Shown in pieces: positions 6,527 through 23,090 of a DNA stretch of 34,049 nucleotides. The translations under genes were made by a program, and so were the position numbers. Position 1 is the first letter of the stretch. The number at the start of each line of letters is the position of its first letter. The notes beneath the pieces were generated by a model. It saw nothing but the letters and a program-made list of their open reading frames with translations. It searched no databases and was not told the DNA's origin. This stretch comes from a virus. The stretch spans positions 1-34,049 of the IMG/VR virus record IMGVR_UViG_3300035458_000073; one strand, 5' to 3'.

Positions 6527-7806
6527 TCCTCAATCCCATGTTCTTCTTTTTTAGAACTTATAAACCAATTCCAAGTAGGATTGTTTATCCCAAAATGTTT
6601 AAGATATTTTGTTCTTGAAAGCATATTGATAAAATCATAATATCCATCCATAAACTTATTCACCGATTGGAACCAATACCTGTAATTGTTATTTTCTTGT
6701 ATCAATTCCTCACTATTGTCCTTATACCATTTATAGACTGAATATATCTTGTTCCAATATGCGAGGCCATCCCATTCATCTTTATAGAAATCTGAAAACT
6801 TGTTTGAGATATAGGCAGGGAGCTTGTTGTACATATTTTCGGCAACTTTTTCTCGTAATAAGGTTGATTTATAAAGAATAGATAATAAAAACATAGAACC
6901 ATGTTTCATAGGATCGTACATCCAAGTTCCAATATCGCGTGGCAGCCAAGTTTTATTTTGTGGTTCTCGTCCTTCTTCAAACCAGGTCAAATAATGTTTA
7001 GCAGAATCTATTATCAATTTTTTTACTTTATCCCAATCATTTTTACATTCTTTTATTTTTTTGTATGTTACATCAGTTATATAATATTTATTCCTTTCTA
7101 GGAATTTTTCTTCAATAATATACATATCTTCAAATGTTCCTAAATAAATATTTTGTACAGCTTTTTGAAATCTATGAACACTATCAGTATGAATAAAATG
7201 ATCTATTGGTTTTGGATAACTAAACAATGTCTTTTTATCGTCTAACTGCAATTCATTTAAGTCAATTAATATACTTTCTACTTGCGGGAACAATTTACAA
7301 ATTATTTTTGTTTTATCTTGTTTAGGTGGATTTAATTTTAATAATTCCTGTGAACTAAAAATACCAACATTATTCATTTCAAAAAACTCCTTTATGAAAA
7401 TTTTTCTTTTTGGAGTTAAATAATCCCAAGCTATTATTTGATTCATTACACCTTTTTCAAATCCAAAATATGATTTCCATATATTATTTTCTTGTTTAGT
7501 TATTCGCATTAATGGAAATTTTAGCATAGTGGTAACGCCTTGACCTAACGAGCCTGATAAATGAAGCATAATTTTTTTTAATAGAATAACAGACATCCCC
7601 CATGAAGGAGCAATACGCTTATAATCTAATAAATAAAATTGAGTGTCCTTTATTTCTATAAAAGTCATTTGTCCAGATATAGCCCAATTAAAAAATCTAT
7701 CAAATGTAAACAACTCAATAATTCTAAAATTATATTGGGCCCAATATTCTTTTACATATAATCCTAGTAAAATCTGTTTTGGTTTTTCCTGAATCAAATT
7801 ATTCAT
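6523..7806 (-). CDS. Unrecognised 427-aa protein coupled to GIY-YIG gene
   Basis: This is the largest protein of the left arm and I do not recognise it. It is helical and rich in aromatic residues, with no signal peptide or membrane segment. The N-terminal 120 residues have a mixed strand/helix pattern that could hold winged-helix-like units (SWGMSVILLKKIMLHLSG, then LKFPLMRITKQE). The C-terminal half is rich in Trp and Tyr. Its start lies inside the last codons of the GIY-YIG gene, an 8-nt overlap, so the two are probably translated together. Roles in replication initiation or in regulation are only guesses; a structure prediction would be the natural next evidence. Confidence 0.75.
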   Translation of the reverse strand: MNNLIQEKPKQILLGLYVKEYWAQYNFRIIELFTFDRFFNWAISGQMTFIEIKDTQFYLLDYKRIAPSWGMSVILLKKIMLHLSGSLGQGVTTMLKFPLMRITKQENNIWKSYFGFEKGVMNQIIAWDYLTPKRKIFIKEFFEMNNVGIFSSQELLKLNPPKQDKTKIICKLFPQVESILIDLNELQLDDKKTLFSYPKPIDHFIHTDSVHRFQKAVQNIYLGTFEDMYIIEEKFLERNKYYITDVTYKKIKECKNDWDKVKKLIIDSAKHYLTWFEEGREPQNKTWLPRDIGTWMYDPMKHGSMFLLSILYKSTLLREKVAENMYNKLPAYISNKFSDFYKDEWDGLAYWNKIYSVYKWYKDNSEELIQENNNYRYWFQSVNKFMDGYYDFINMLSRTKYLKHFGINNPTWNWFISSKKEEHGIEE

Positions 7807-8566
7807 TATCTATATCTCTAAAATGCATACACATATCATTTTCACCAGAAAAGGTTATTTCTCGCATATGTACTATTTTATTTGAAATTAAAAATGCTAA
7901 TTTATTGTCATTATCCCAAACATTAATTTTATCATATAACATAGAATATTCTTTTTTTAATATTAATATTCCATATTGATATAAATCAAATAATGCTGTG
8001 TCAATTTCTTCTTCTGGTAAATAAAAACATTCTTTTATTAATTCATTTATACTTATTCTAATTACTCTTTTTCTTAATTTATATTTATCTTTTCTAGCCA
8101 AACTCTTTAAAAATCTATTGAGAATACAAAGTTGATTTTTACTTAAATTAGTTCCATTAGAATTTTTTATATATATTTCGTCCATTGAACACTTATCCAT
8201 ATATAAATAAGTATTAATAGAATTTTTTATTTTATAATTAAATGAATTAGAATTGGAATAATGCGTAATTTTATATTTGTTTTTTGCTCTATCGGACATT
8301 TCGCCGACGCCCAATTTTTCATTAAACCCTTTTTTAGGATTCATAGAATCATATTTATTTATCCAATAAATTTCTTTTTCATTTAATTCATTTTTAGATG
8401 TGGCTGTATCTATAATAGTCCAGGTAAAACTTATTTTTCCAGAGTCAATATGTTGTTTTATTCTCTGATTAAAATTAGATATTGTTTTGCCTACATAAAT
8501 TTTTCCAGTTACTGGTTCTACGCCTTTATAAATTCTTCCATAAATTCTTCCATAAATCTTTTCCAT
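7799..8566 (-). CDS. GIY-YIG endonuclease, copy 2, with novel C-terminal domain
   Basis: The N-terminal 90 residues form a GIY-YIG nuclease: GRIY, then KIYVGKT, an Arg helix (FNQRIKQH), a Glu helix (LNEKEIYWINKYDS) and GFNEKLGVGE. The remaining 160 residues do not match a NUMOD motif; they are helical and may be a winged-helix DNA-binding unit (around ISINELIKECFYLPEEEIDTAL). No Shine-Dalgarno sequence precedes the ATG, which directly follows the terminal hairpin and U-tract of its leader RNA. A short tandem duplication encodes IYGRIYGRIY at the N-terminus. Nuclease fold is firm, target unknown. Confidence 0.86.
   Translation of the reverse strand: MEKIYGRIYGRIYKGVEPVTGKIYVGKTISNFNQRIKQHIDSGKISFTWTIIDTATSKNELNEKEIYWINKYDSMNPKKGFNEKLGVGEMSDRAKNKYKITHYSNSNSFNYKIKNSINTYLYMDKCSMDEIYIKNSNGTNLSKNQLCILNRFLKSLARKDKYKLRKRVIRISINELIKECFYLPEEEIDTALFDLYQYGILILKKEYSMLYDKINVWDNDNKLAFLISNKIVHMREITFSGENDMCMHFRDIDNE
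8528..8558. repeat. 12-bp tandem repeat in GIY-YIG copy 2
   Basis: The unit ATAAATTCTTCC occurs at 8528-8539 and 8540-8551, followed by a partial third copy. It keeps the reading frame and repeats the residues IYGR at the start of the nuclease, next to the GIY motif. Replication slippage is the likely cause. Confidence 0.8.
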
Positions 8567-9262: not shown

Positions 9263-9433
9263 ATGATTCTACTTGTTTACCTTTTTGTTGTTGTCGCGGC
9301 TTTGATTTTGCTTCTTACGATTGGTAAAATGCTCGCTTGTTGGTATTTCAAGATCAATGAAAGGATAGATATTGAAAATAAAATATTGGCTGAATTAATC
9401 AAAATGAATAAGAGGAATAATGTCCCCAACTGA
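9263..9433 (+). CDS. Small single-pass membrane protein (56 aa)
   Basis: AAGGAG lies 8 nt before this ATG. Residues 2-21 are hydrophobic (LLVYLFVVVAALILLLTI), followed by a charged helical tail of about 30 residues. It overlaps the next gene by 14 nt. The N-terminal anchor and cytoplasmic tail suggest it may pair with the following membrane protein; this is inference from position. Confidence 0.62.
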   Translation: MILLVYLFVVVAALILLLTIGKMLACWYFKINERIDIENKILAELIKMNKRNNVPN

Positions 9434-10472
9434 TTTTTATACTATCATCAAAACCCTTCCTCGCGGCCAATCAGGCTTCCCGACAAAAAAGGCAATGTCA
9501 GAAGCTACAGGATTGAATATCTGGAATGTGAAGTTGTTCTTGAAGGGCTTGGTGAAAAGTGGCAGGATAAGGATGGAAGGGAATTGGTACAAGTTCAATA
9601 ATATAAAAATCGATAATGGATTTCCTATAAAAGTAACCGATGAGCAGGCAAAAGATTATTTAGATCATATTACTGAAGAAAACAAACATGATTCGATAGA
9701 AGCCGATTTATATTTACCTAAAATAGCTATGCCTAAGCGATTTCAAAATAAACTAGAATCGTTTACAATACTTCGCTGGGTAATGCTATTGGTTGGAATT
9801 ATTTCCGCTGGCCTTCTAATTTATTACATATCTATTTATGCGAAGGAAAATCTTACAACTACTTTGGCGTATATTCGATCTATTGTTATTGTCACTTTTA
9901 GTTTTACTTCGTTTCAGGCTATAATCATTTTACTCAAGCAAGTAAAAAGTTTCATTGGTTATATAGGAATAATTCTATTGTTTATGTTTTGGCTGATGGT
10001 AGTAACATTTTCAATGATTTCTACTATTGCAGGCCAGTTTCAATTATTTTCTGGAAAGCAAGATATCATTACAATTAGTTCTACAGAATATAATGATACG
10101 ATAGCTCGGGAAAAGGAATTAGTCAACAATAGGAATATTTTATTAAATCAGATAAATCCATATTTGAAAATATTGAATACTGAATTGGATGACAAGCAAT
10201 TATCAGATGTACAATATCGAATTACTATTTATAATAAGGCGGTACAAAAAATAGATGATGAATTGAAAGTAATCCGGGATAAAAAAGTGAAGCTGTCAGA
10301 TGGCAAGCAAATAGAGCAAAATAATAATTTCTATTCATGGCTATCAGGTATATTGAAAATATCAAGCAATAGTTTGCAATTATTTCTATATATCTTGCCA
10401 GCCTTATTTTTGGATCTGATAGGCCCAATCAGTTTTTCAATTTTTTTATTTCTAAGACGTAAGGAAAACTAA
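9420..10472 (+). CDS. Winged-helix protein with four membrane segments
   Basis: Residues 1-65 look like a winged helix (QSGFPTKKAMSEATGLNIW, then VKLFLKGLVKSGRIR and a strand pair). Four hydrophobic segments follow, at about residues 118-140, 150-172, 176-200 and 322-346. Between the last two is a polar stretch of some 115 residues with heptad-like helices. A DNA-binding head on a multi-pass membrane body is unusual for a phage protein and could tie a DNA site to the membrane or sense the envelope. No named family is recognised. The C-terminal segment resembles the 25-residue peptide encoded beyond the GIY-YIG element at 11343. Confidence 0.78.
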   Translation: MSPTDFYTIIKTLPRGQSGFPTKKAMSEATGLNIWNVKLFLKGLVKSGRIRMEGNWYKFNNIKIDNGFPIKVTDEQAKDYLDHITEENKHDSIEADLYLPKIAMPKRFQNKLESFTILRWVMLLVGIISAGLLIYYISIYAKENLTTTLAYIRSIVIVTFSFTSFQAIIILLKQVKSFIGYIGIILLFMFWLMVVTFSMISTIAGQFQLFSGKQDIITISSTEYNDTIAREKELVNNRNILLNQINPYLKILNTELDDKQLSDVQYRITIYNKAVQKIDDELKVIRDKKVKLSDGKQIEQNNNFYSWLSGILKISSNSLQLFLYILPALFLDLIGPISFSIFLFLRRKEN

Positions 10473-10510: not shown

Positions 10511-10640
10511 GAGTAGGAATATCATGGTGGTGATGTTCTTAAATTTATACACGGAGGCGATGAGAATCCTTATTGGAGTGAACGCATTATCCGTGATGCG
10601 TGAAGGCCCACCAGCCCACTCCAATAAGGATTTTTATTTA
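10511..10640 (+). ncRNA. Structured leader RNA of GIY-YIG copy 3
   Basis: A 7-bp hairpin with hexaloop TGGTGG (10518-10537) precedes CACGGA (10550-10555). A perfect 16-bp stem (10565-10580 with 10617-10632) encloses a 5-bp hairpin (10583-10587 with 10596-10600). The loop of that hairpin holds TCCGTG (10590-10595), the exact complement of CACGGA. The joining strand TGAAGGCCCACCAGCC (10601-10616) differs from copy 1 at only two positions. A TTTTTATTT tract follows, 8 nt before the nuclease ATG. The pseudoknot, hexaloop and joining strand are shared with copy 1 although the closing stems differ in sequence. Confidence 0.74.
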
Positions 10641-10647
10641 TTACAAA

Positions 10648-11346
10648 ATGATTGGATATATCTATATGACAACTAATCTATTAAATGGCAAAATTTATAT
10701 TGGTCAAAAGAAAAGTAAAAAATTCTTGCCTAATTATTATGGTAGTGGTAAAGCTTTGTTAAATGCAGTTAAAAAATATGGCAAGGAAAATTTTAAGATA
10801 AAGATAATTCATACTTGCTATAAAATAAAATGTCTAAATAAATGGGAAATTTATTATATAAAAATATACGATTCTACAGATAAAAAAATAGGTTACAATA
10901 TAGCTAAGGGTGGTAATTTAGGGGCACTAGGATTAATTGCCTCTGATAAAACAAGAAAATTGATAGGTAAAGCAAGTAAGAAAACATGGGTAAAATTAAA
11001 AGCTAAGGGTTTTGTATCTCCTTTGAAAGGAAGAAAACGACCCCCATTTTCTAAAAGACATTTACAAAATTTATCTAAAGGCCATATTGGTATTGCTATT
11101 TCTGAAGAACAGAAAGAAAAGCTTAGAATTTCTATGCTTGGTAAAAAGAAAACACAAGAAAATAAAAATAATTCCAGTATAGCCGCTAAAAAACGTTGGG
11201 CTAAAATACCAAAATATAAACGCAAACAAAGTGATGAATATATAGAAAAAAGAAAATTGGGTGTTAAGTTGTTTTTACAAAATAATCCTGATGCTAGAAA
11301 GGGACATAATAAAGGCGTGAAATATAAAAAGAAAGGTAAAAAATGA
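10648..11346 (+). CDS. GIY-YIG homing endonuclease, copy 3, with NUMOD3 motifs
   Basis: The N-terminal domain shows GYIY, then KIYIGQKKS, the YGSGKALLNAVKKYGKENF helix, the Glu helix (NKWEIYYIKIYDS) and GYNIAKGGN. Behind it are NUMOD3-type DNA-binding repeats (PPFSKRHLQNLSKGHIG, then SEEQKEKLRISMLGKKK) and a basic tail. I use the ATG at 10648, where the nuclease fold begins. The frame is open back to a GTG at 10600, but that stretch is the 3' half of the RNA element. No Shine-Dalgarno sequence precedes 10648. The stop overlaps the next tiny ORF as ATGA. Confidence 0.9.
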   Translation: MIGYIYMTTNLLNGKIYIGQKKSKKFLPNYYGSGKALLNAVKKYGKENFKIKIIHTCYKIKCLNKWEIYYIKIYDSTDKKIGYNIAKGGNLGALGLIASDKTRKLIGKASKKTWVKLKAKGFVSPLKGRKRPPFSKRHLQNLSKGHIGIAISEEQKEKLRISMLGKKKTQENKNNSSIAAKKRWAKIPKYKRKQSDEYIEKRKLGVKLFLQNNPDARKGHNKGVKYKKKGKK

Positions 11347-11650: not shown

Positions 11651-12727
11651 ATGATTTCAGAGCTTTCTATTCAAAATTACCAATCTCATAAAAAATCAAC
11701 TCTTAATTTTACTCTTGGTGTCAATTCAATTGTAGGCTCTAGTAATTGAGGCAAGACCGCAATACTTCGCGCATTGTATTGGGCAATATATAATCGTCCT
11801 GGCGGTATTTCATATATTTCTCATTGGAATAGAGACAAGAACGATAAGCCGATTAAATCAACATTTGTAAGAGTAACTAATGAAAATAATGTAATTGAGC
11901 GCAGGAAAGGCAAAGTAAAAGTTAACGATGAATCAAAAGATTTTAATGGGTATATAGTAAAGGGGAAATATTTAGAAGCGATAGGGCAAGACGTTCCCGA
12001 TGAAGTTACGAAATTATTTAATTTAGATTCTGTCAATATACAAAGGCAGATGGATGCCCCATTTTTATTATCTGAAAGTGCTGGCGAAGTAGCTAGGTTT
12101 TTCAATTCAACAATAAGGCTTGATTTAATTGATCGAGTATTAAGCAAAGCAGAAAGCAAGCGACGAGAAGCAAATAAGGAAAAAGTCAGATTAGATAACG
12201 AAAATATAGAATTATCAAAAGAGATAGAAACATTCAATTGGCTTGATGATGCAGAATTATTAGCTGATAGAATTGAGAAAATAGAAAATAGGGTTAATGA
12301 TAATGAAAATAAATTAGAAAGTTTATCAGAAAATATAAATAATTATAATGAAAGTTTTGCTATAATAGAGTGTCAGGAGGTTATTTTATCCGCCGTTCCA
12401 ATAGTTAATAAAATAATTTCAGTACAGGAATCGCTAGAACAAAATATTGAAAGATGCGAGCGATTACAAAATCTGTCTGAACAGTGGGAAGAACAAAATA
12501 CTATAATCGAAGGAACGGCGGATTTTTCTAAAGCTTTATTGATGATAGAAAATATAGATATTTTTAGAAAAGAGATTTATGAAAAAGTGCAATTATTAGA
12601 AAAGATCGAAGAGACTATTGAAGATTATGAAAATAAAAATGATGAAATATTAGAATGTGCAAATAAAATAGATAAATTAGAAGAAGAATTACCTTCAATT
12701 TGTCCTTTATGTGGTAATGAAATATGA
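11651..12727 (+). CDS. sbcC: SbcC/Rad50-like ATPase, N-terminal half, with in-frame TGA
   Basis: Starting at the ATG directly after the previous stop, the protein has the Rad50/SbcC N-terminus (ISELSIQNYQSHKKSTLNF) and a Walker A motif GSSNxGKT. The x is a TGA codon at 11747-11749. Downstream come RALYWAIYNRP, the Q-loop-like region (NLDSVNIQRQMDAPFLLSESAGEVARFFN) and a long coiled coil. The ORF ends at the zinc hook CPLC (residues 351-354 counting the TGA). The partner half with the signature, Walker B and H-loop is the gene at 14030. The TGA may be a nonsense mutation, a sequence error or recoding; the frame is otherwise intact. SbcC works with SbcD in processing DNA ends. Confidence 0.78.
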
Positions 12728-13614
12728 GTAAATTTGTTTTATGTGCCGACTTGCATATCCGCAATGACCGTCCTCGTTGCCGTATAGATGAAAATTGGGA
12801 AGAAACTCAACGATTAATGATTCAAGAAATAGTATCTATCGCAAATAATAAAAAATGTCCTTTAGTCATTACCGGTGATTTGTTTGATTCTCCAAATATC
12901 CCGGCTCGATTCATCGTCATGCTTATTGAGGAGTTTTCTAAGATAAATACTAAGGTTTATTTTTTGGCTGGCAATCATGAACTTCCTTATCATTCCATAG
13001 ATAATGTAGAAAATAGTTCAATAGGTATTCTAAGCGAATTATCGAAAGAGCATATGAAAATATATGAAGGAATGTCCGATTTCGGAGAATGGCAACATTT
13101 CAATTCTAAAATAATGGGAAAGAAAACTGGGTTATTGTTCATTCATAGATTAGTATTTGAAAGCATTAAGACAATTCCTCCTAGCGTTTCCGCTATTACT
13201 GCGAGCGATTTACTGAAAGAATATCCTGATAGCAATTGGATCTTTTTAGGTGATAATCACCAATTTTTTCATTATAATAAAAATGGCAAGCATGTTCTAA
13301 ATCCAGGATGTACTATCAGGCAAAAAAGCGATGAGCAAGAATACCAGCCAAGCGTTTGTTATGTGGATATTGAAAAGGAAACAGTTGAAAGAATATTACT
13401 AAATGATAATATCACAATGGTGAACGATAGCTACTTGGTAGAAGAAAATGAGCGAGAAAATAGGATTGAAGCATTTGTCGAAGGTATAAAAAAGAATGGT
13501 CGAATAAGTTTGGATTTCATGGAGAATCTGAATACTGCAATTACTAAAAATAAAAAGACAATGGATCAATATACAATAGATATGATATACGAGCTTTGCG
13601 AGGAGGAAAAATAA
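12724..13614 (+). CDS. sbcD: SbcD/Mre11-like nuclease (metallophosphoesterase)
   Basis: The 296-residue protein carries the calcineurin-like phosphoesterase motifs in order: ADLH (Asp9, His11), GDLFD (51-55), GNHE (83-86), the His of LFIHR (141) and GDNH (176-179). These residues bind the two metals that cut DNA. The C-terminal 80 residues would form the capping and ATPase-binding part and are shorter than in cellular SbcD. It overlaps the ATPase N-half as ATGA, so the two are made together. It probably acts in replication- or recombination-linked DNA end processing, like T4 gp47. Confidence 0.9.
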   Translation: MSKFVLCADLHIRNDRPRCRIDENWEETQRLMIQEIVSIANNKKCPLVITGDLFDSPNIPARFIVMLIEEFSKINTKVYFLAGNHELPYHSIDNVENSSIGILSELSKEHMKIYEGMSDFGEWQHFNSKIMGKKTGLLFIHRLVFESIKTIPPSVSAITASDLLKEYPDSNWIFLGDNHQFFHYNKNGKHVLNPGCTIRQKSDEQEYQPSVCYVDIEKETVERILLNDNITMVNDSYLVEENERENRIEAFVEGIKKNGRISLDFMENLNTAITKNKKTMDQYTIDMIYELCEEEK

Positions 13615-13857
13615 ATTACCCCAAAAGAGTTTTCTGATATTAAATCAAAGATCGAATCAGCAAAAGAGAAAAAGGCTAGGGCCGAGGGAGCTTTGGCGAA
13701 AATCGAGGAAAGCTGGTTATCAGAGTTTGAAATAAATAATATTGACGAAGCCAAGGAAAAAGTGAAGGAATTGGAAACTGAAATTGAATCAGATAAGAAG
13801 AAACTGGAAAAGCAATATTCAGCTTTAGAAAAAATCACTTCATGGGATGAGATATGA
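13615..13857 (+). CDS. Coiled-coil protein with probable ATT start (80 aa)
   Basis: The frame is open without ATG, GTG or TTG near its start. An AGGAGG site inside the end of the nuclease gene stands 8 nt before an ATT codon at 13615, directly after the TAA, so ATT is the likely start. The 80-residue product is almost entirely heptad-patterned (SKIESAKEKKARAEGALAKI, then ELETEIESDKKKLEKQ). It lies between the two halves of the ATPase, where the descending coiled coil would be expected. It may replace part of that coil or bind it. The ATT start is an inference from spacing. Confidence 0.55.
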   Translation: MTPKEFSDIKSKIESAKEKKARAEGALAKIEESWLSEFEINNIDEAKEKVKELETEIESDKKKLEKQYSALEKITSWDEI

Positions 13858-14033
13858 CGTTTAATTTATTATCGTTCGGTAAGGATAAAAAAGATTATCA
13901 TTTTTATTTTATGTGTTTTGATAATCCATTCTGGAGATGTTCGGGAATAATTTATATTAACAAAGAATATGGATTTTTAGACTGGGATTTATTTGGTATT
14001 AGATGGATAATTAGGGAATTTAGAAATAAATGA
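13854..14033 (+). CDS. Hypothetical small phage protein (59 aa)
   Basis: A 59-residue ORF is joined to the coiled-coil gene and to the ATPase C-half by ATGA overlaps on both sides. It is aromatic (YHFYFMCFDNPFWRC, then GFLDWDLFGIRWIIREF) and not recognised. Its position inside the recombination run suggests co-expression with those genes. Confidence 0.55.
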   Translation: MTFNLLSFGKDKKDYHFYFMCFDNPFWRCSGIIYINKEYGFLDWDLFGIRWIIREFRNK

Positions 14034-14641
14034 ATAATATCCAAACATATAAAACCAAAATATCAAAATGCCAAGGTAAGCTAGAATCTTTGCAGTCAAG
14101 GCAAAGCAAAATTGTAAATGATTTAGATAATTTGATTATAAGACAAAAGGCATTAGAGGAAGCACAAGTATTCATCCAAACCGTTGCCCAGGCCACGCAA
14201 GAGCAACTCAAATTTTCTATTTGTGATATAGTGAACCTTTCATTGCAAACTTGCTTCCCTGGAGAATATGTGTTTGATATTGATTTTAAGATTGAGCGGG
14301 GTAAGACATCGGCTAAATTATTATTTTTGAAAAATGGTATTGAAGTTGATCCTATCGATGCTTCGGGCGGGGGCGTAGTGGATTTGGTTTCATTCGCCCT
14401 TCGCTTATCTGCTTGGAGTTTGGGGCATACCGATAATGTGATTATATTAGATGAACCATTCAGGTTTTTATCAAAAGATTTACAACCTCGCGCTGGTGAA
14501 ATGATGAATAAACTATGTAAGTCATTAGGATTACAAATAATCTGTGTGACTCACAGCCAAGAAATCATAGAAAATAGCGATAGGATTTTTGAAGTGACTA
14601 TCAAAGATGGGATATCTAAAATAATTTCCAAGGAGGTTTGA
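14030..14641 (+). CDS. sbcC: SbcC/Rad50-like ATPase, C-terminal half
   Basis: The 203-residue protein begins with a coiled coil (about residues 1-60). It then contains the ABC signature SGGG (112-115), Walker B with VIILDEP (137-143) and the H-loop VTHSQEI (His175). These complement the Walker A and zinc hook of the product encoded from 11651. The split falls at the hook tip, with the nuclease gene and two small ORFs between. Two chains could pair through the coil and rebuild one ATPase head. The SbcC family call is strong; the working arrangement is inferred. Confidence 0.85.
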   Translation: MNNIQTYKTKISKCQGKLESLQSRQSKIVNDLDNLIIRQKALEEAQVFIQTVAQATQEQLKFSICDIVNLSLQTCFPGEYVFDIDFKIERGKTSAKLLFLKNGIEVDPIDASGGGVVDLVSFALRLSAWSLGHTDNVIILDEPFRFLSKDLQPRAGEMMNKLCKSLGLQIICVTHSQEIIENSDRIFEVTIKDGISKIISKEV

Positions 14642-14974: not shown

Positions 14975-15229
14975 ATGAGCAGAAGCTTCAAGCACAATCC
15001 TATAATCAAAGATGATACTTGTAAAAAGTTTGGTAAGAAGTCTGCAAATAAAAAAGTAAGAAAAACAGATTTAGATAGCGGTAACAACTATAAAAAAGTT
15101 TACCAGAGCTATGATATTTGCGATTATAGTTATGGTCTTTACGGCTGTAGGAAGGAGGATGGAATACCGGTTATGTATAAAGGCAGAAAAATGACTTATA
15201 ATGAGATAATGGAATATTGGAGGAAGTAG
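14975..15229 (+). CDS. Conserved small phage protein, MSRSFK type (84 aa)
   Basis: The start MSRSFKHNP and the basic segment KKSANKKVRKTDLDSGNNYKK match the outline of a small protein common in Firmicutes phages and mobile elements, whose function is unknown to me. A Tyr/Cys-rich middle (SYDICDYSYGLYGC) follows. AGGAG lies 7 nt before the ATG. Its stop overlaps the GTG start of the mutase gene. Confidence 0.72.
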   Translation: MSRSFKHNPIIKDDTCKKFGKKSANKKVRKTDLDSGNNYKKVYQSYDICDYSYGLYGCRKEDGIPVMYKGRKMTYNEIMEYWRK

Positions 15230-16314
15230 TGAAATATGATTATGTAATTATTGGTGCAGGATTAGCCGGAATAACTATTGCTAATATTTTGGCTAATAAA
15301 AATAAAAAAGTATTAGTTATAGAAAAATGCGATCATATAGGTGGGAATTGCTATGATGAATATGTGGATGGGGTTTTAGTTCATAAATATGGACCACATA
15401 TTTTTCATACCGACAGCAAGATAGTTTGGAATTACTTATCGCAATTTACAGAATGGAACGATTACAAGCACAAGGTAAAAGTATCTGTTGAAGGTAAATT
15501 AATCACTTTGCCAATCAATCTAAACAGTATAAAAGAATTGTTCCCTGATGATTATAAGATGTATTATGATGCCTTAAATGAAGTATTCAAGAAAAAAGAA
15601 ATAGTCATAGGCGATTTGCTTGATTCCTACAATACGGTCTTGGTTGTTTTGGGTTCTTATTTATATAGAAACATCTATGAAAATTATTCATTAAAGCAAT
15701 GGGGAGTTATCCCGGATAAGTCTGTATTGAATCGTATTCCGATCAGATTGAATTATAATGATGATTATTTTACGGATAGGTATCAAGGGTTACCGATTAA
15801 TGGGTATACTAAGATGTTTGAAAATATGTTATTCCATAAAAATATAGAAGTAAGATTAAATGAAACGTGGAACGTGGAATATGATGATTTTCATAAAATT
15901 ATTTATACTGGTTGCATAGATGAATTATTTGATTATCAATATGGGAAATTGTCGTATCGATCTTTAGATATTTACTTTGAAAATTATAATATACCTTTTT
16001 ATCAAAAACATCCAGTCGTAAATTATCCAGATAAAAAATCATTAACCAGAATTACCGAATATAAATATATGACTAAAAATAGTATAAATACGGTTATATC
16101 AAAAGAATATCCAAAAGCTTGTGAAGAAAATGATATTCCATATTATCCAATAAATAATGAAGAAAATGATACTTTATATAAAAAATATAAACAATTAGCG
16201 GATAAAATACCTAATTTAACTTTATTAGGAAGATTGGCGGAATATAAATATTATGATATGGACGATGTGGTGCTAAAAGCAATAAAGGAGAGCGAAAATT
16301 ATGTTAATGACTAA
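15229..16314 (+). CDS. glf: UDP-galactopyranose mutase
   Basis: This flavoenzyme ring-contracts UDP-galactopyranose to UDP-galactofuranose. The N-terminus has the FAD dinucleotide fold (YVIIGAGLAG, glycines at 9, 11 and 14), then VIEKCDHIGGNCYDEYVDG and the hallmark GPHIFHTD. Further on are YTGCIDELFDYQYGKLSYRS and the C-terminal GRLAEYKYYDMD. At 361 residues it has the usual bacterial length. I use the GTG at 15229, with GGAGG 5 nt upstream and overlapping the previous stop; the frame is open from a TTG at 15217 that includes the ribosome site. It opens the sugar cassette. Confidence 0.95.
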   Translation: MKYDYVIIGAGLAGITIANILANKNKKVLVIEKCDHIGGNCYDEYVDGVLVHKYGPHIFHTDSKIVWNYLSQFTEWNDYKHKVKVSVEGKLITLPINLNSIKELFPDDYKMYYDALNEVFKKKEIVIGDLLDSYNTVLVVLGSYLYRNIYENYSLKQWGVIPDKSVLNRIPIRLNYNDDYFTDRYQGLPINGYTKMFENMLFHKNIEVRLNETWNVEYDDFHKIIYTGCIDELFDYQYGKLSYRSLDIYFENYNIPFYQKHPVVNYPDKKSLTRITEYKYMTKNSINTVISKEYPKACEENDIPYYPINNEENDTLYKKYKQLADKIPNLTLLGRLAEYKYYDMDDVVLKAIKESENYVND

Positions 16315-17338
16315 TGTAAATTGGGATAAAGCTAGAAATTGTAACGTATGGATCAACAATAAAAAGTATATAGATTTCACCTCATCTATTTTCTGTCAAA
16401 ACTTTGGGCATAATAATCCATATGTAATTAAGGAAGTCGATAAGCAGATTGATAAATGCATGCATGCTTATGGATATACTACCGAGATACAAACCAAATA
16501 TATAGAAAAATTAAAGGAAATGTTGGGATATAAACATATTTTATTATTTTCTACAGGATCAGAAGCAACAGAAGCGGCAATAAAGATAGTTCAAAATAAT
16601 GGTTATAATTGTGTAGGAATTAAAGGTGCGATGCATGGGCGGACGCTAGGGGCTGAAGCATTAGTAGGAAAGCGAAAAGCATTAGGCATAGATTCTGTTG
16701 AATCTTTGTTTTGTGTTTCTGGATTTAACAATCCTTCTTATTTTATTGAAGGTTATCGTGGATATGATTGCAAATTATTAAATAAAGAAGAAATAGATAA
16801 TATTAATTATTTACAAAAAAACAATAGTTTAATTATTTTTGATGAAATTCAATCAGGTTTTTATCGTACTAATGAGATGTTTATTCACCAGCATTATAAA
16901 ATTAAACCAGATATTTTATTAATTGGTAAATCAATGGGCGGTGGTTTCCCATTATCGGCAGTTTGTTTTAATAGGGATTTTAATTTAGATAATATTGAAT
17001 TAACGTCTACGCATTCAGGACAACCACTACAGATGGCAGCTGGATATGGTATACTAAAATATATTGAAAATGAATTTGATAGAACTAATTATTGGGAAAA
17101 TATAAAAATAATGGATAAGTTTTTTAGCAAATTAAAAATAGAACATAATAATTTGGGAATGGTGGGTGCTGTCAAATGTGGTGAAATTGATGAGGAATTA
17201 TTTTATAAAAATTGTTTTGACCACGGATTATTAGTTACTAAAACAGGAAAGGGTTGGATTAAGATCGCTCCGCCTGTAGTTATTGGCAACAATAAATTAA
17301 ATAAGGGATTAAATATAATTAGGGATTATGTATGTTGA
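16301..17338 (+). CDS. PLP-dependent class III aminotransferase
   Basis: The 345-residue protein has the class III pattern: the PLP-phosphate segment FSTGSEATEAAIK (83-95), FDEIQSG (Asp181, Glu182, Gln184), the Schiff-base lysine in LIGKSMGGG (Lys210) and STHSGQPL. Relatives include acetylornithine, glutamate-1-semialdehyde and sugar-pathway aminotransferases. It is short for the class (usually 400 or more). Within this cassette it probably aminates a keto intermediate of the unusual sugar or its side chain. It overlaps the mutase gene by 14 nt. Confidence 0.88.
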   Translation: MLMTNVNWDKARNCNVWINNKKYIDFTSSIFCQNFGHNNPYVIKEVDKQIDKCMHAYGYTTEIQTKYIEKLKEMLGYKHILLFSTGSEATEAAIKIVQNNGYNCVGIKGAMHGRTLGAEALVGKRKALGIDSVESLFCVSGFNNPSYFIEGYRGYDCKLLNKEEIDNINYLQKNNSLIIFDEIQSGFYRTNEMFIHQHYKIKPDILLIGKSMGGGFPLSAVCFNRDFNLDNIELTSTHSGQPLQMAAGYGILKYIENEFDRTNYWENIKIMDKFFSKLKIEHNNLGMVGAVKCGEIDEELFYKNCFDHGLLVTKTGKGWIKIAPPVVIGNNKLNKGLNIIRDYVC

Positions 17339-17691
17339 TTCGGCATACTGGTATTTATGTAGATAATATTGTACAATACGATCATATATTTACTCGGTTA
17401 GGTTTTATTAAAATATATGATGAATGGGAAAAAGTAAATGGGGACGATGTTAATATAAAAAAGTATTTTGATAAAGAGAATAATTATTTATTAGAATTAT
17501 TATATGATAGAAAATTTGATATAGTAAAAAATTCCAGTCATTTATGCTTTTATGGTGAATTACCTGATTGCATGAAATGTCATTATGTAGTTGAAGGTAA
17601 GCCATTTAATAAAAAGTATAAACAATGGTTTGTATATGTAGATGACTCAATATATTTTGAATTCGTAAAGGAGAAAGATATTGAATTATAA
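17332..17691 (+). CDS. VOC-superfamily (glyoxalase-fold) protein
   Basis: The 119-residue product begins RHTGIYVDNIVQYDHIFTRLGF and has IKIYDEWE next, the first beta-alpha-beta unit of vicinal-oxygen-chelate proteins such as methylmalonyl-CoA epimerase and glyoxalase. It ends with VYVDDSIYFEFV, where a metal-ligand Glu is usual. VOC enzymes act on small vicinal oxygen substrates, so an epimerase or isomerase step in the cassette is plausible. It overlaps both neighbours by 7-11 nt. Confidence 0.7.
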   Translation: MLIRHTGIYVDNIVQYDHIFTRLGFIKIYDEWEKVNGDDVNIKKYFDKENNYLLELLYDRKFDIVKNSSHLCFYGELPDCMKCHYVVEGKPFNKKYKQWFVYVDDSIYFEFVKEKDIEL

Positions 17692-18295
17692 AGAGTATTC
17701 ATATCCTAAACGTAATTTAAATTTTGTACAAGATTTAATTAAATATATTACTACGATTTGTCAAATAGGATTTAGTGATTTAGGATTATCTATTGGTGGC
17801 GAGGATTTAGTTCATGAAAAAGTATTTTTTGATTATGGGCTGAAATTAGCTATATTAAATGATAAAGAAAAATACGATGCTGAATGGATGATGATCCCTT
17901 ATGAAGATAATACTTTTGATTATGTATTTATTAAATCTGTAATTGAGCATATTTCAAATACCGATTTATTTTTATCTGAAATATATCGAGTGTTAAAGCC
18001 AGGCGGCAAAGTAATTATTTTAACTCCTGATTATCAAAAACAGAAAGATTTCTTTTATGATGATTATACACATATCAAGCCATTTACATTAAATAGTTTG
18101 AAAATGGCAGTACAGTTAAATGGATTTAAAATAATGATAGGAAAATGGTTTTATTATTACAAAAAAATATGGGAGGGCAAAATGTTTCCTAATGGATTGA
18201 ATTGTCGATTGGGATATTGGTTGACTAAGGTTACTGGAATTAAATATTTTCGTTGGGGTTCAGATAGGCAGTTGTTTGTAGTAGGTATTAAGTGA
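17681..18295 (+). CDS. SAM-dependent methyltransferase (class I)
   Basis: The 204-residue protein has the class I methyltransferase core seen in Methyltransf_11: DNTFDYVFIKSVIEHI (about 76-91), then EIYRVLKPGGKVIILTPD. The glycine-rich SAM loop is degenerate (LGLSIGGEDL). The start is a TTG with AAGGAG 7 nt upstream, overlapping the previous stop. Here it probably methylates a sugar or its carrier. Confidence 0.85.
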   Translation: MNYKEYSYPKRNLNFVQDLIKYITTICQIGFSDLGLSIGGEDLVHEKVFFDYGLKLAILNDKEKYDAEWMMIPYEDNTFDYVFIKSVIEHISNTDLFLSEIYRVLKPGGKVIILTPDYQKQKDFFYDDYTHIKPFTLNSLKMAVQLNGFKIMIGKWFYYYKKIWEGKMFPNGLNCRLGYWLTKVTGIKYFRWGSDRQLFVVGIK

Positions 18296-19122
18296 ATAAA
18301 ATAGTTGTAATCGCCAATAGTAGATTTGAAAAAGGATTGGTAGCGTTTATCAATTCATATAGAAAAGTTAATATGCAAAGTCCATTAGTAATTATCGATA
18401 CCGGATTAGAAAATAAATACCATTATGAAACTATTAAGCGTTATAACAATTCATTTAATTTTAAGAAAGCCCCATGGATGCTTGATTGCTCGCCATATCA
18501 TCAATTACAATTAGCGGAAATTGAAGCTGACAAGATAATTTACCTGGAAGCTGATATGTTGCTGTTGAAAAATATAGATCATTTATTCGACGAGATAATA
18601 ACTGGCAACGATGACATGGCTATTTCTGTAATGGATGATGCCGCTTTCGCTACGATGCAAGGCAATAATTATATAGATAATTGTGGAAGATATTTTATAG
18701 AGGGTTCTGAATTAAGGAATAAATATGCTAGATGCAAAGGATATAACGGCGGATTAATCGGAGGAACAAAAGGTTTTTACGAATGGCTAGAAAAACATTT
18801 TAATGAATATCTATCTGAATATGAAGGACAATACAGATTATTGGCGCAGAGTTTATTGAATCAGATTTTCATTCAAGAGGATATAGCGGTTTATGACGTA
18901 GGGTTGGAATATAATTTTTCTGGTATAAATGAATATTATGATAAGCCGGAATTATATAATATTAAGGAAGGCAAAAATGGATATGATATATATTTTAATA
19001 ATTTGCCTCTTAGTGTGGTACATTTTACGGGGAAGAACAAACCATTTTTAATTGACGATAAAAACATTATGACTCCTGTATTTGATTATTACTATAATAA
19101 AGGAGAATTATTTAATGTTTAG
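18292..19122 (+). CDS. GT8-like glycosyltransferase (GT-A fold)
   Basis: The 276-residue protein has IIYLEADMLLL (84-92), which stands where GT8 enzymes have the metal-binding DxD. The C-terminal VVHFTGKNKPF matches the HxxGxxKP of the family. A GTG start overlaps the methyltransferase stop. Residues in between (YNGGLIGGTKGFYEWLEKHF) fit the acceptor/donor part of the fold. It should move a sugar from a nucleotide-sugar to an acceptor, possibly one made by this cassette. Donor and acceptor are unknown. Confidence 0.82.
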   Translation: MNKIVVIANSRFEKGLVAFINSYRKVNMQSPLVIIDTGLENKYHYETIKRYNNSFNFKKAPWMLDCSPYHQLQLAEIEADKIIYLEADMLLLKNIDHLFDEIITGNDDMAISVMDDAAFATMQGNNYIDNCGRYFIEGSELRNKYARCKGYNGGLIGGTKGFYEWLEKHFNEYLSEYEGQYRLLAQSLLNQIFIQEDIAVYDVGLEYNFSGINEYYDKPELYNIKEGKNGYDIYFNNLPLSVVHFTGKNKPFLIDDKNIMTPVFDYYYNKGELFNV

Positions 19123-19873
19123 CGAGTTAAACCTAGAATTAACTTCTCGCTGCAACAAGCACTGCCAGATTTGCCCCCGTTGGGGTAACAATATACAAAA
19201 AGGTGATATTCCTTTAGCATTATTAGAAATTATAGAAAAGCAATTGGAAGATAATATTATTATTCATTTTCATAATAATGGTGAGCCATTAGTTTATCCT
19301 TATTTGAAAGAGGCATTTGATATTTTCACTCGGCAGATAAAGCATTTTGATACTAATGGAATTTTATTATTAGAAAAGGCCGAGGAGATTCAAAAGGTAA
19401 ATATCATTTCTGTTTCTATAATTCAAGACGATCCTTTAGGCTATGAGCAAATGAACATCTTATATAGGTATTTGAAAATTAAACCTGATAATCAAAAAGT
19501 GATTGCCCGATGTGTCGGTGATATTGATGATAAACGGATGGTAATGATTAAACAAATGAATATTCCTATAGTAAAAAGGGTTATTCATAATAAGATTGGC
19601 AGGGTTAATTATACTAAGGAAACAATTAAGCCGGAAGATTTCATTTGTAGGGATTTCTTGAATCATCCTGCTATTGATTATCTAGGTAATTTTTATATGT
19701 GTGTCAAATACGATCCTAAAGGCGAAGGGATATTAGGCAATTTGTACAATATTACAATTAAGGATTTGTGGTATGGAAAGAAACGGATGGAATTTTTAGA
19801 GAAACATGTACAGGATAGAAATGATGTAGAATTTTGTAGCAATTGCGAATATTATGGATATCCAAATTATTGA
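19115..19873 (+). CDS. Radical SAM/SPASM domain protein
   Basis: From the ATG at 19115, with AAAGGAG 9 nt upstream, the protein reads ELNLELTSRCNKHCQICPR, giving the CX3CX2C cluster at Cys13, Cys17 and Cys20. The C-terminal part has ICRDFLNHPAIDYLGNFYMC, then GNLYNITIKDLWY and FCSNCEYYG, which is a SPASM domain binding extra iron-sulfur clusters. Such enzymes modify peptides or small substrates by radical chemistry. The frame is open further up to 19082, inside the previous gene. It probably makes or edits the unusual sugar or its attachment site. Confidence 0.9.
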   Translation: MFSELNLELTSRCNKHCQICPRWGNNIQKGDIPLALLEIIEKQLEDNIIIHFHNNGEPLVYPYLKEAFDIFTRQIKHFDTNGILLLEKAEEIQKVNIISVSIIQDDPLGYEQMNILYRYLKIKPDNQKVIARCVGDIDDKRMVMIKQMNIPIVKRVIHNKIGRVNYTKETIKPEDFICRDFLNHPAIDYLGNFYMCVKYDPKGEGILGNLYNITIKDLWYGKKRMEFLEKHVQDRNDVEFCSNCEYYGYPNY

Positions 19874-19885
19874 AGGAGGAATAGA

Positions 19886-20062
19886 ATGTTAGATAAAAAT
19901 ATAAGTGAATTAACAAGTGATTTATTTTCTATATTTTTACCAATGGATATAAAATATAAAGAAAGGCTAAATATGTTTTTGTTAGAATATAAAGACCTTA
20001 TTAAAAAAGAAATAGCAAATGAAATAGCTAACAATACTTTGAATTTAAGGAGAAATAAATGA
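19886..20062 (+). CDS. Hypothetical small helical protein (58 aa)
   Basis: AAGGAGG lies before this 58-residue ORF, which joins the NeuB-like gene by an ATGA overlap. It is helical and charged (YKERLNMFLLEYKDLIKKEI) and not recognised. Its place suggests co-expression with the cassette. Confidence 0.58.
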   Translation: MLDKNISELTSDLFSIFLPMDIKYKERLNMFLLEYKDLIKKEIANEIANNTLNLRRNK

Positions 20063-20889
20063 ATAATTGTATTTATGTGGCAGAATTAGGAATTAACGGG
20101 AACGGTTCATTAAACTTATATCTGCAACTAATTGATTTGGCAAAAAAGCACAATTTTGATTATGTAAAGTTTCAAAAGCGTGATATTGATTCATGCTATA
20201 CTAAAGAATATTTAGATGGTCCCCGCGAATCATCTTGGGGAAAAACACAACGTGATCAAAAACTAGGATTGGAATTATCCATCGATTCATATAAAATCAT
20301 AGATGAATATTGTAGAAAAATTGGAATAGGTTGGTATTATTCTCCTTGGGACGTAAAGAGTGCGGAATTAATGTCGCAATTCAAAACAGATTATATCAAG
20401 ATTGCTAAGGCGTGTTTAACAAATAATGAATTAGCGGAGTATTATCGTGATACAGGAAATAAATTAATTTTATCTATTAATTATGATAATAATTTTGCAA
20501 TTAATATTGGATATCTTCATAATTTTGGTAAAATTGAATACTTATTAAGCTGTATATCATTATATCCGGCTCCCAATAATTTTAATGGTCTGGAAAATAT
20601 TTCTATATTACAGGAAATTTGTATTAATACAAATTATAAAGTTGGCTATTCTAATCATTCTAGTAATTGGATTCATCCTGTAATTGCTTCATATCTAGGT
20701 GCAGAAATGATAGAATGCCATATTACTTTAGATAAAAAAATGTATGGCTCAGATCAATCAGCTTCTTTAGATGATAATGATTTAACTAATATGATGAAGT
20801 ATAGATATAATCCGCCGAGTCAAGATGAAGTGAATAAATATATATTACAAGAAGCAGAAGTATTAAAGAAACTTAGACAAACATGGTAA
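20059..20889 (+). CDS. neuB: NeuB-like N-acetylneuraminate/nonulosonate synthase
   Basis: NeuB enzymes condense a sugar with phosphoenolpyruvate to form a nine-carbon nonulosonic acid. This protein has VAELGINGNG (7-16), VKFQKRD (36-42), LGLELS (69-74), the metal-ligand region VGYSNHS with His200, and ECHITLDKKMYGSDQSAS with His221. It has 276 residues, so the TIM barrel is complete but the C-terminal antifreeze-like SAF domain of typical NeuB (about 340 residues) is missing. The SAF domain normally closes the partner subunit's active site. The exact product cannot be told from the sequence. Confidence 0.9.
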   Translation: MNNCIYVAELGINGNGSLNLYLQLIDLAKKHNFDYVKFQKRDIDSCYTKEYLDGPRESSWGKTQRDQKLGLELSIDSYKIIDEYCRKIGIGWYYSPWDVKSAELMSQFKTDYIKIAKACLTNNELAEYYRDTGNKLILSINYDNNFAINIGYLHNFGKIEYLLSCISLYPAPNNFNGLENISILQEICINTNYKVGYSNHSSNWIHPVIASYLGAEMIECHITLDKKMYGSDQSASLDDNDLTNMMKYRYNPPSQDEVNKYILQEAEVLKKLRQTW

Positions 20890-20899
20890 GGAGGATAAA

Positions 20900-21070
20900 A
20901 TGAAAGTATATGATATTGAAGATGGATATTCATATTGTCAAATTCATTCTGTAGTAGCTGAATCAATGGCAGAAGCAGAAAGGATATTTAAGAATAAATA
21001 TAAAATGGTTACTATAAAATCAATCAAGCTACATAGTGAATATGTCCAAATTCAAAAATATGATGAATAA
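20900..21070 (+). CDS. Hypothetical small phage protein (56 aa)
   Basis: AAGGAGG precedes this 56-residue ORF, which ends directly before the next ATG. The sequence (SVVAESMAEAERIFKNKY and onward) resembles small alpha/beta phage proteins of unknown role. Confidence 0.58.
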   Translation: MKVYDIEDGYSYCQIHSVVAESMAEAERIFKNKYKMVTIKSIKLHSEYVQIQKYDE

Positions 21071-22306
21071 ATGAAAGTATTGTTGATCTATACCCATCAG
21101 AACAAAGAGGCATGGGTACCTATAGGATTATTATATATAGCTGCTAATTTACGAAAGAATAATATTGATGTAAAAATAATTGATTCTAAATACGATAATG
21201 TGTTTGATGAAATAATTCATTATAATCCAGATATTATTGGTTTAGGTGGGATGACTATTAATGCTAATAGTGCTATTGAATTAGGCAAACAAATTAAACA
21301 AAACTTCCCTAATATCATTTTAGTATTTGGTGGTGTTCATTTTACATTTTTACCACAAGAGGCTTATGACGTTGCCGATATAATAATTAAGGGCGAAGGC
21401 GAAAAAGTATTTGTAGATATTTGTAAAATATATAATAGATATTGTGATATAAAAGGAATATTATATAAAGATTATTGGAACTATGGTGATTGGATAGATA
21501 CTGATGATTATGAATTAATTAATGATTTGGATGATCTACCTTTGCCAGCTTATGATTTAATTAACATGTCAAGATATTCAGATGAATTAGTGACAGGCGA
21601 ACATGCTATAAGTATTTTAACTGGTCGGGGATGCCCATATAATTGTAGTTTTTGTGCTTCACCTAAATTATGGCGGAGGAAAGTTAGATATCATTCAATT
21701 GAATATACTATTAATCACATTAAGTATTTAATTGATAATTATAATTTACAGAATCTAAGAATAATGGATGATACTTTTACTTGTGATAATGGAAGAGTAA
21801 TAGAGTTTTGTAATGCTATTATAGAAAATAATTTCAAGTTGAATATGACGTGTTTAACTAATGTTCATAATGCAGATTTAGAAGTGTTTAAGCTAATGAA
21901 AAAAGCAGGGTTTAGTATTGTGGCTTTTGGATTAGAAAGTGTTGACGAAAATGTATTAAAATTATGTAATAAACAGAATACTAGAGAGAATATGACTAGA
22001 GCAGTTAAAATAGCACATGAAGCTGGATTAAAAACTGAATTATTATTTATGGTTGGGAATATGGGAGATACAGAAAAAAGTCTAAATGATAGTTTACAAT
22101 TTGCTAAAGAATTAAATGGGTATAAAACATATTTCCAGTTAGCTACTCCATTTCCAGGATGCGAATTTTATGATAAAGCAGAACAATATGGGAAAGTAGT
22201 TGATAGGAATTGGAAAGATTATAACCATAAAAAAGTTACTTATATTCCTAATGGCCTTACTGAAGACATAATGTATGATACAATTAAAAAAGGATGTGTG
22301 AATTGA
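21071..22306 (+). CDS. B12-binding-type radical SAM enzyme
   Basis: The N-terminal 130 residues have the cobalamin-binding-like Rossmann unit of this class (PIGLLYIAANLRKN, then DIIGLGGMTIN and FGGVHFTFLPQEA, ending IIKGEGE). The radical SAM cluster is GCPYNCSFC (Cys188, Cys192, Cys195). The middle and C-terminus (FGLESVDENVL, then LLFMVGNMGDTEKSLNDS) follow the family pattern. The His-loop DxHxxG of base-off B12 binders is not seen, which is common in this group. Members methylate unactivated carbons or rearrange substrates. Confidence 0.9.
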   Translation: MKVLLIYTHQNKEAWVPIGLLYIAANLRKNNIDVKIIDSKYDNVFDEIIHYNPDIIGLGGMTINANSAIELGKQIKQNFPNIILVFGGVHFTFLPQEAYDVADIIIKGEGEKVFVDICKIYNRYCDIKGILYKDYWNYGDWIDTDDYELINDLDDLPLPAYDLINMSRYSDELVTGEHAISILTGRGCPYNCSFCASPKLWRRKVRYHSIEYTINHIKYLIDNYNLQNLRIMDDTFTCDNGRVIEFCNAIIENNFKLNMTCLTNVHNADLEVFKLMKKAGFSIVAFGLESVDENVLKLCNKQNTRENMTRAVKIAHEAGLKTELLFMVGNMGDTEKSLNDSLQFAKELNGYKTYFQLATPFPGCEFYDKAEQYGKVVDRNWKDYNHKKVTYIPNGLTEDIMYDTIKKGCVN

Positions 22307-22923
22307 AATTATCAACGATAGATATTGTGGATGATTTAATAAAAAGAAAATCAGAGTTAGATATTGTTTGTAGTGAACAAATATATCAAACAATAGAAAG
22401 TTTAGTTGATTGTTTTAATAATGGTAATAAGTTATTAGTATGTGGAAATGGAGGTAGCGCTGCCGATGCCCAACATATTGTTGGGGAATTGATGAAGCCA
22501 TTTAAATTAAAAAGAGATTTGAGATATTCATTAAATAACTGGTATTTAGATAAAAATATAAAAGGTTCCTTGCCTGTAATTTCATTAATATCAGAAAATC
22601 CATTAATTACTGCAATTGCAAATGATATGGATAAAAATTTAATTTTTGCTCAACAAGTATTTGGGTTAGGAAAAGAAAACGATTGTTTATTGGCAATTAG
22701 CACTTCTGGTAATTCTAAAAATATTATTTGTGCTTGTCAAATTGCAAAAGCATTAGGGATGAAAGTTATAGGATTAACAGGAAGAATTGGTGAGGAGTTA
22801 AAACAATATTGCGATATATGTATATGCGCGCCTGCCGATGAAACATATTTAATTCAGGAATTGCATTTACCAATTTATCATACAATATGTCTGGCAATAG
22901 AAAATGAAATATTTGGAGAATAA
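22303..22923 (+). CDS. GmhA-like SIS-domain sugar-phosphate isomerase
   Basis: The protein has the sedoheptulose-7-phosphate isomerase motifs: LLVCGNGGSAADAQHIVGE, then ITAIANDMDKNLIFAQQ, the phosphate-binding STSGNSKN, and ETYLIQELHLPIYH with catalytic-type Glu and His. GmhA makes heptose phosphate; DiaA relatives share the fold but not the catalytic residues. I prefer the TTG at 22303 (AAGGA 8 nt upstream, overlapping the previous stop); an ATG at 22294 is directly against that site. It may supply a heptose or other sugar phosphate for the cassette. Confidence 0.88.
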   Translation: MKLSTIDIVDDLIKRKSELDIVCSEQIYQTIESLVDCFNNGNKLLVCGNGGSAADAQHIVGELMKPFKLKRDLRYSLNNWYLDKNIKGSLPVISLISENPLITAIANDMDKNLIFAQQVFGLGKENDCLLAISTSGNSKNIICACQIAKALGMKVIGLTGRIGEELKQYCDICICAPADETYLIQELHLPIYHTICLAIENEIFGE

Positions 22924-22925
22924 TA

Positions 22926-23090
22926 ATGAAAAGAATAATATTAGAAAAGGGGCAAATAGTTAGGCATAAAGGCGAGCGTAAAATAATTAAAACAGCATTT
23001 AAGGATAGATTTGATAGGTTTACTGTGCAGTTTTTAGACAATACTGTTTGTACAGATATGAAAGATATCGAATTAGATGGGAGAAAATAA
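22926..23090 (+). CDS. Hypothetical small basic protein (54 aa)
   Basis: GGAG lies 7 nt before this ATG, and the stop is directly before the cytidylyltransferase start. The 54-residue product (KGQIVRHKGERKIIKTAFK and onward) is basic and beta-rich, perhaps a small SH3-like fold. It is not recognised. Confidence 0.56.
   Translation: MKRIILEKGQIVRHKGERKIIKTAFKDRFDRFTVQFLDNTVCTDMKDIELDGRK

Follow-up and report, generated by a model that had tools for sequence, protein, structure and literature searches.

The SbcC (Rad50) protein encoded in a tailed-phage contig is divided at its zinc hook into two separately encoded halves, and this gene module is a real and recurrent split variant of Mre11-Rad50 (SbcCD). 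Our reading, to which we assign a probability of roughly 0.8, is that it encodes a naturally split SbcCD, with an ATPase head formed from two chains and a small protein, S, as a fixed extra subunit. Part-by-part homology, the split point, the co-occurrence of the genes, their position beside recA and an imbalance in the lengths of the arm strands were each established directly.

Mre11-Rad50 is described as having one continuous ATPase chain, with an arm that leaves the head and returns to it by way of the hook. Canonical members (E. coli SbcCD, P. furiosus MR and T4 gp46/gp47) have in common with the split set the head lobes, the coiled-coil arm, the CPxC hook, the Mre11-type nuclease and the phage recombination neighbourhood, T4 46/47 being the functional analogue. 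The difference lies in the chain. Canonical Rad50/SbcC is one polypeptide with the hook mid-chain, as in the single-chain controls (CPVC at approximately residue 470 of 921, 550 of 1074 and 531 of 1025) and in T4 gp46 (CPTC at approximately residue 291 of 564), whereas the split set is cut at the hook, carries an extra small subunit and has an unbalanced arm.

In this study, we examine a window of 34,049 nucleotides, positions 1 to 34,049 of the IMG/VR virus record IMGVR_UViG_3300035458_000073. It is a 34-kb contig of a tailed phage, with a terminase at 27462.

Results

Composition of the module in the window

Positions 11651 to 14641 carry, in this order, the N-half of SbcC, an SbcD-like nuclease (D), an 80-residue helical ORF (S), a 59-residue ORF and the C-half (Table 1), and the genes are linked chiefly through ATGA overlaps. 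An earlier, sequence-only reading of this DNA had proposed a split of SbcC/Rad50 at the hook, which proved correct: the N-half ends ICPLCGNEI, so that the hook is located at its C-terminus, and relatives are split in the same way. The C-half was likewise expected to bring the signature, Walker B and H-loop, and SGGG, LDEP and TH are all present; the signature lacks the usual acidic or Gln residue. No ATG, GTG or TTG start exists for the full length of S, which begins with ATT behind AGGAGG at a position where the aligned relatives have ATG. The 59-residue ORF exists as described but is not part of the module, having no relative in any locus compared and no Pfam or PHROGs match, and was rejected as an arm component.

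Table 1. Features of the split SbcCD module and their positions in the window
Feature	Position	Strand	Evidence or remark
SbcC/Rad50 N-half (N-lobe of ATPase head, outgoing arm, C-terminal zinc hook)	11651..12727	+	358 codons, TGA at codon 33
Walker A GSSN*GKT with in-frame TGA at 11747-11749	11735..11758	+	sequence, relatives' alignment
Zinc hook CPLC, residues 351-354 of 358	12701..12712	+	four residues short of N-half end
D, SbcD/Mre11-like metallophosphoesterase, 296 aa	12724..13614	+	PF00149 E=4.2e-10; ATGA overlap with N-half
GDNH replacing the usual Mre11/SbcD GHxH metal motif	13249..13260	+	GDxH in about half of family
AGGAGG, ribosome-binding site of ATT-started S ORF	13601..13606	+	sequence
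S, 80-residue helical-hairpin/coiled-coil protein, ATT start	13615..13857	+	family profile match E=4e-20
59-residue ORF overlapping S and C-half	13854..14033	+	no Pfam/PHROGs match
SbcC/Rad50 C-half, with return helix (74 residues) and the signature, Walker B and H-loop motifs	14030..14641	+	phrog_15167 E=1.2e-26
SGGG, ABC signature-equivalent	14363..14374	+	alignment
Walker B VIILDEP	14438..14458	+	alignment
H-loop Thr-His	14549..14554	+	alignment

Homology and predicted folds of the parts

Searches and fold prediction for the N-half used the window frame read through its in-frame TGA. The N-half matches PF13476 (E=1.7e-12), and a profile of its relatives finds the Rad50 N-lobe in the PDB (best E=1e-10). 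The best PDB match of the C-half family profile is Rad50 (3aux, E=7.5e-17), and that of the D family profile is Mre11 (1ii7, E=1.6e-12). AlphaFold2 models the N-half (pLDDT 86) as a head lobe followed by helices 157-194, 197-288 and 293-346 and then the hook, and the C-half (pLDDT 94) as a single helix, residues 2-75, followed by a head lobe. Rad50 or SMC half-heads occupy the top Foldseek ranks for both models, the N-half retrieving Rad50 N chains and the C-half Rad50 and SMC C chains. The top fold matches include the P. furiosus Rad50 head entries 1f2u and 1ii8, in which the N- and C-lobes are separate chains of one head as in the split set; a two-chain head is therefore physically workable. 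These entries are laboratory constructs without the hook, whereas the division here is natural and lies at the hook rather than at the head.

The family thus has a Rad50-type N-lobe with Walker A, interrupted in the window copy by the TGA, and a Rad50-type C-lobe with signature, Walker B and H-loop. CPxC, the predicted zinc hook, occurs in almost all N-halves compared, and Rad50_zn_hook (PF04423) matches the end of a cellular N-half weakly, under its cut-off. The linked Mre11/SbcD nuclease is found in nearly every complete locus, and its metal-binding residues (D9, H11, D52, H85, H141 and H179) are invariant in the family. GDxH replaces GHxH in about half of the D family, and is therefore a family trait and not damage. 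Assignment of S to a known coiled-coil family was tried and rejected, as the PDB and Pfam gave generic coiled-coil matches only.

Recurrence of the split and of S

A scan of viral sequences with the single nuclease sequence returned no relatives, and two-sequence alignments used as queries returned one or two. A five-sequence alignment of the N-half worked: it identified 33 bacterial-genome loci as well as 226 confirmed viral-contig relatives, and 80 of the latter were retained; the C-half alignment yielded at least 543 relatives, of which 80 were retained. Of the 114 N-half ORFs of relatives that are complete, 113 have CxxC no more than 20 residues from their C-terminus, the sole exception (L043) being off-family, and 74 of 75 N-halves in a second, overlapping set end within 20 residues of CxxC. 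N and C were not found in one ORF in any locus examined, nor were both lobes found in one chain with a mid-chain hook. The single fused gene in related phages that would have marked the window's arrangement as a local accident is therefore absent from all loci, and the repeated occurrence of the split in independent genomes, which the sequence-only reading had named as support, is evident: the split point and linked S are found in the isolate genomes of Tissierella praeacuta DSM 18095 and phage vB_BboS-125 and in scores of contigs.

The idea that the 80-residue coiled-coil ORF belongs to the module also held. Of the 96 loci that have both halves, 95 also have S, which invariably precedes C and in most cases is its direct neighbour. 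Its profile gives one match per locus in 98 of 99 loci and is thus not a generic coiled-coil detector.

Gene order is less constant, with N-D-S-C in 56 loci, D-N-S-C in 27, N-S-C-D in nine and D-S-C-N in two. On a Brevibacillus plasmid and a Geobacillus plasmid, D is fused to N (L008 3915-6470 and L010 3918-6323), and the fusion is followed by individual genes for S and C. Mre11 and Rad50 parts share an ORF only as this D+N fusion, on these two plasmids, and do not do so in the window. The nuclease gene does lie between the halves in the window, as had been stressed, but with several orders in use, including the fusion, that position has no general meaning. Bacillus phage vB_BboS-125 has an AP2-domain gene, probably a mobile element, that separates the N-half from S, and the nuclease gene of this phage (L002 9247-10227) is unannotated.

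In a tree rooted on three single-chain SbcC proteins, an outgroup too small to prove a single origin, the 89 split members form one group (support 0.87) with two clades, one of phages and one of Bacillota (support 0.95).

Separate C-halves were also seen in Microbacterium phage Magritte, Tunturiibacter phage Tunturi_5 and Microcystis phage Mvi-JY20 (L123, L124 and L125). N, D and C were all found in Mvi-JY20, and an unclassified 94-residue gene precedes C.

A chromosomal version in Tissierellia

The split module is chromosomal and lies beside recA in about two dozen Tissierellia genomes and MAGs, which runs counter to the earlier claim that cellular homologues are single chains. It is located between recA and rny in genome contigs L013-L042, for example at L015 5006-8349, and the flanking genes belong to the same clusters across loci. 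The order in T. praeacuta DSM 18095, according to NCBIfam, is ftsK, rimO, pgsA, cinA, recA, the module (D, N, S, C) and rny; no NCBIfam model is over cut-off for D, N, S or C themselves.

The C-half was detected at E<1e-70 in 17 of 245 genomes of the class. Canonical SbcC is scarcer in these carriers, its Walker-B domain being over cut-off in 2 of 17 as compared to 113 of the 228 others (Fisher p=0.002, in a test that ignores shared ancestry). One of the two positive carriers has a 1397-residue frame that may be a different SMC-like protein. Because canonical SbcC is mostly absent from split carriers, these cells probably have the split set as their own SbcCD.

Length of the arm strands

The outgoing strand, from coil start to hook, measures 198 residues in the phage (short) clade and 300 in the Bacillota (long) clade. 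The returning coil, taken as S plus C-half, measures 155 and 160 residues, respectively, which gives return/out ratios of 0.79 and 0.54; in a single-chain SbcC control from the same class the outgoing strand measures 292 residues and the returning strand 312. The equal-length antiparallel strands of an SbcCD arm were thus not found. N-halves range from 300 to 532 residues, with S steady near 80 and C near 203-217. The return coil is too short for a continuous three-chain arm with one copy of each chain, and the misfit is worst in the long clade. Either more than one S is present per arm, or the distal N arm is folded back, or part of the arm is unpaired. The three-chain arm suggested by the sequence-only reading consequently survives in part: the coiled-coil ORF is conserved, but a plain 1:1:1 arm is unbalanced in length and the 59-residue ORF drops out.

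A stop codon in Walker A of the window copy

Codon 33 of the window N-half is TGA and falls inside Walker A, a point on which the earlier reading was silent. The frame is not open under table 11, and the ORF listed after the TGA is a 317-codon remainder from TTG 11774. A recoded sense codon was considered and rejected because TGA ends 15 of the 38 window ORFs checked. In 116 relatives the codon here encodes an amino acid, which is Ser in 96 and Cys in five. The N-half is therefore interrupted in Walker A, by mutation or by sequencing error; unless it is the latter, the window copy is expected to be inactive. Many relatives are intact. Four other loci (L036, L058, L119 and L199) show sporadic breaks in N- or C-halves (frameshifts, one TAG and one altered hook), which are probably sequence errors or decay.

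Genomic neighbourhood

In 67 phage loci the module has a RecA-like gene in its vicinity, with one representative confirmed as PF00154, and clamp loader, RuvC, 5'-3' exonuclease and DNA polymerase A genes lie nearby in fewer. By analogy with T4 gp46/47, the likeliest role would be DNA-end processing for recombination. A defence system was considered and rejected, as only weak generic ATPase matches were obtained; PADLOC gave no specific model match or defence partner, with Lamassu LmuB, GajA and others considered.

Discussion

From these parts we infer a physical assembly, a hook dimer, a role for S and a nuclease activity. The ATPase head would be composed of two chains, with Walker A from the N-half and the signature, Walker B and H-loop from the C-half. 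The N-half would bear the outgoing arm and the terminal CPxC hook, such that two N-halves would be joined through zinc at their free chain ends, and the C-half would contribute just some 75 residues of returning helix. SbcD would dock at the base of the arm as the nuclease. S most likely packs on the arm and replaces part of the missing return strand, although its place there is a guess because its profile matches generic PDB coiled coils only. The complex may then act as SbcCD, with ATP-controlled opening, trimming of DNA ends and feeding of the adjacent RecA pathway. A bolder proposal, which we advance tentatively and with the odds somewhat against it, is that a three-chain SbcC with arm subunit S is the only SbcC of the class Tissierellia, encoded beside recA, and is common to a large phage lineage. 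Its arm would be discontinuous, with the hook on a free chain end and with S in more than one copy, or a folded-back N arm, completing it; its ring opening and stoichiometry would be unlike those of every studied Mre11-Rad50.

Two other accounts dispute that the halves form a natural pair. In the first, an ordinary single-chain sbcC would have been broken up in this contig alone, by a recent insertion or through an assembly artefact; in its favour are the premature stop in the window N-half and a gene for a SegE-type GIY-YIG homing endonuclease immediately upstream, at 10600-11346. This account is already refuted by the recurrence of the same split point and linked S in isolate genomes and in scores of independent contigs, with no N+C fusion found, and its probability is close to nil. 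The halves might instead be independent ABC-type proteins, such as defence or partition ATPases, that merely stand side by side, and each alone does weakly match many ABC-type families, including defence ATPases. Such an arrangement is very unlikely given that the halves are complementary, non-overlapping parts of one head with Rad50 N- and C-lobes as their best matches, that their linkage with SbcD and S is near-perfect, and that specific defence matches are lacking while RecA, clamp loader, RuvC and DNA polymerase are the phage neighbours.

A different doubt accepts the split family-wide and concerns the window copy, which may be a decaying pseudogene in an unused locus. An in-frame TGA within the catalytic P-loop, in a genome where TGA is a normal stop, kills Walker A, and there are other sporadic breaks in the family (N-half frameshifts in L036 and L058 and a TAG in the C-half of L119). 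Set against this, the other 325 codons of the N-half and the whole of D, S and C are open with their motifs kept, and a base-call error in a metagenome would look identical; we place the chance of decay only slightly below even. Readthrough, or decoding of the TGA as selenocysteine, would restore a full-length N-half and draws on the Cys found in five relatives. It is scarcely credible, since Ser prevails in 96 of 116 relatives, a SECIS-like fold was not found downstream of the TGA (z=0.31), TGA closes 15 ORFs, and the sole tRNA found in the contig is tRNA-Leu(UAA).

A split Rad50/SbcC did not turn up in full-text searches, which covered open-access papers. The nearest prior hint is two SbcD-SbcC fusions, of Anaerostipes and Bacillus phage 0305phi8-36, that lack one SbcC P-loop segment (Yoshida et al. 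2011, PMC3175470). These Mre11/Rad50 fusion proteins resemble the D-N fusions on plasmids, and the account, in the portion of that paper considered here, covers the fusions and the missing segment and mentions neither a C-half with a gene of its own nor an S subunit. The same portion gives Asp in place of His206 in Mimivirus R555, which is the change seen as GDxH in the split-module nucleases. The N- and C-halves are already contained in phrog_16465 (exonuclease) and phrog_15167 (ATPase), which are annotated separately and with no stated link. What is new is that two defining features of SbcC, a single chain through the hook and a balanced arm, were tested for and are absent from proteins whose parts are homologous to SbcCD.

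Natural division at the hook in phages, on megaplasmids and on the chromosomes of a bacterial class shows that the complex can do without an unbroken chain across the hook. The split set is also a natural experiment on the role of the arm, in which the distal part of the return strand has been cut short or has given way to a small protein encoded separately. The SbcD-SbcC fusions reported without one P-loop segment would thereby be explained, and families whose current annotation is that of unrelated ATPases or hypothetical proteins gain likely names and partners.

Elsewhere in the window, the ORF at 7799-8566 is GIY-YIG-like by eye. The region 15217-23936 appears by eye to encode sugar synthesis (mutase-, aminotransferase- and sugar-acid-synthase-like proteins and radical SAM proteins), the aminotransferase being the only family match found there. 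A membrane protein encoded at 9420-10472, with no Pfam match, has relatives near the module in about nine other loci (cluster 9).
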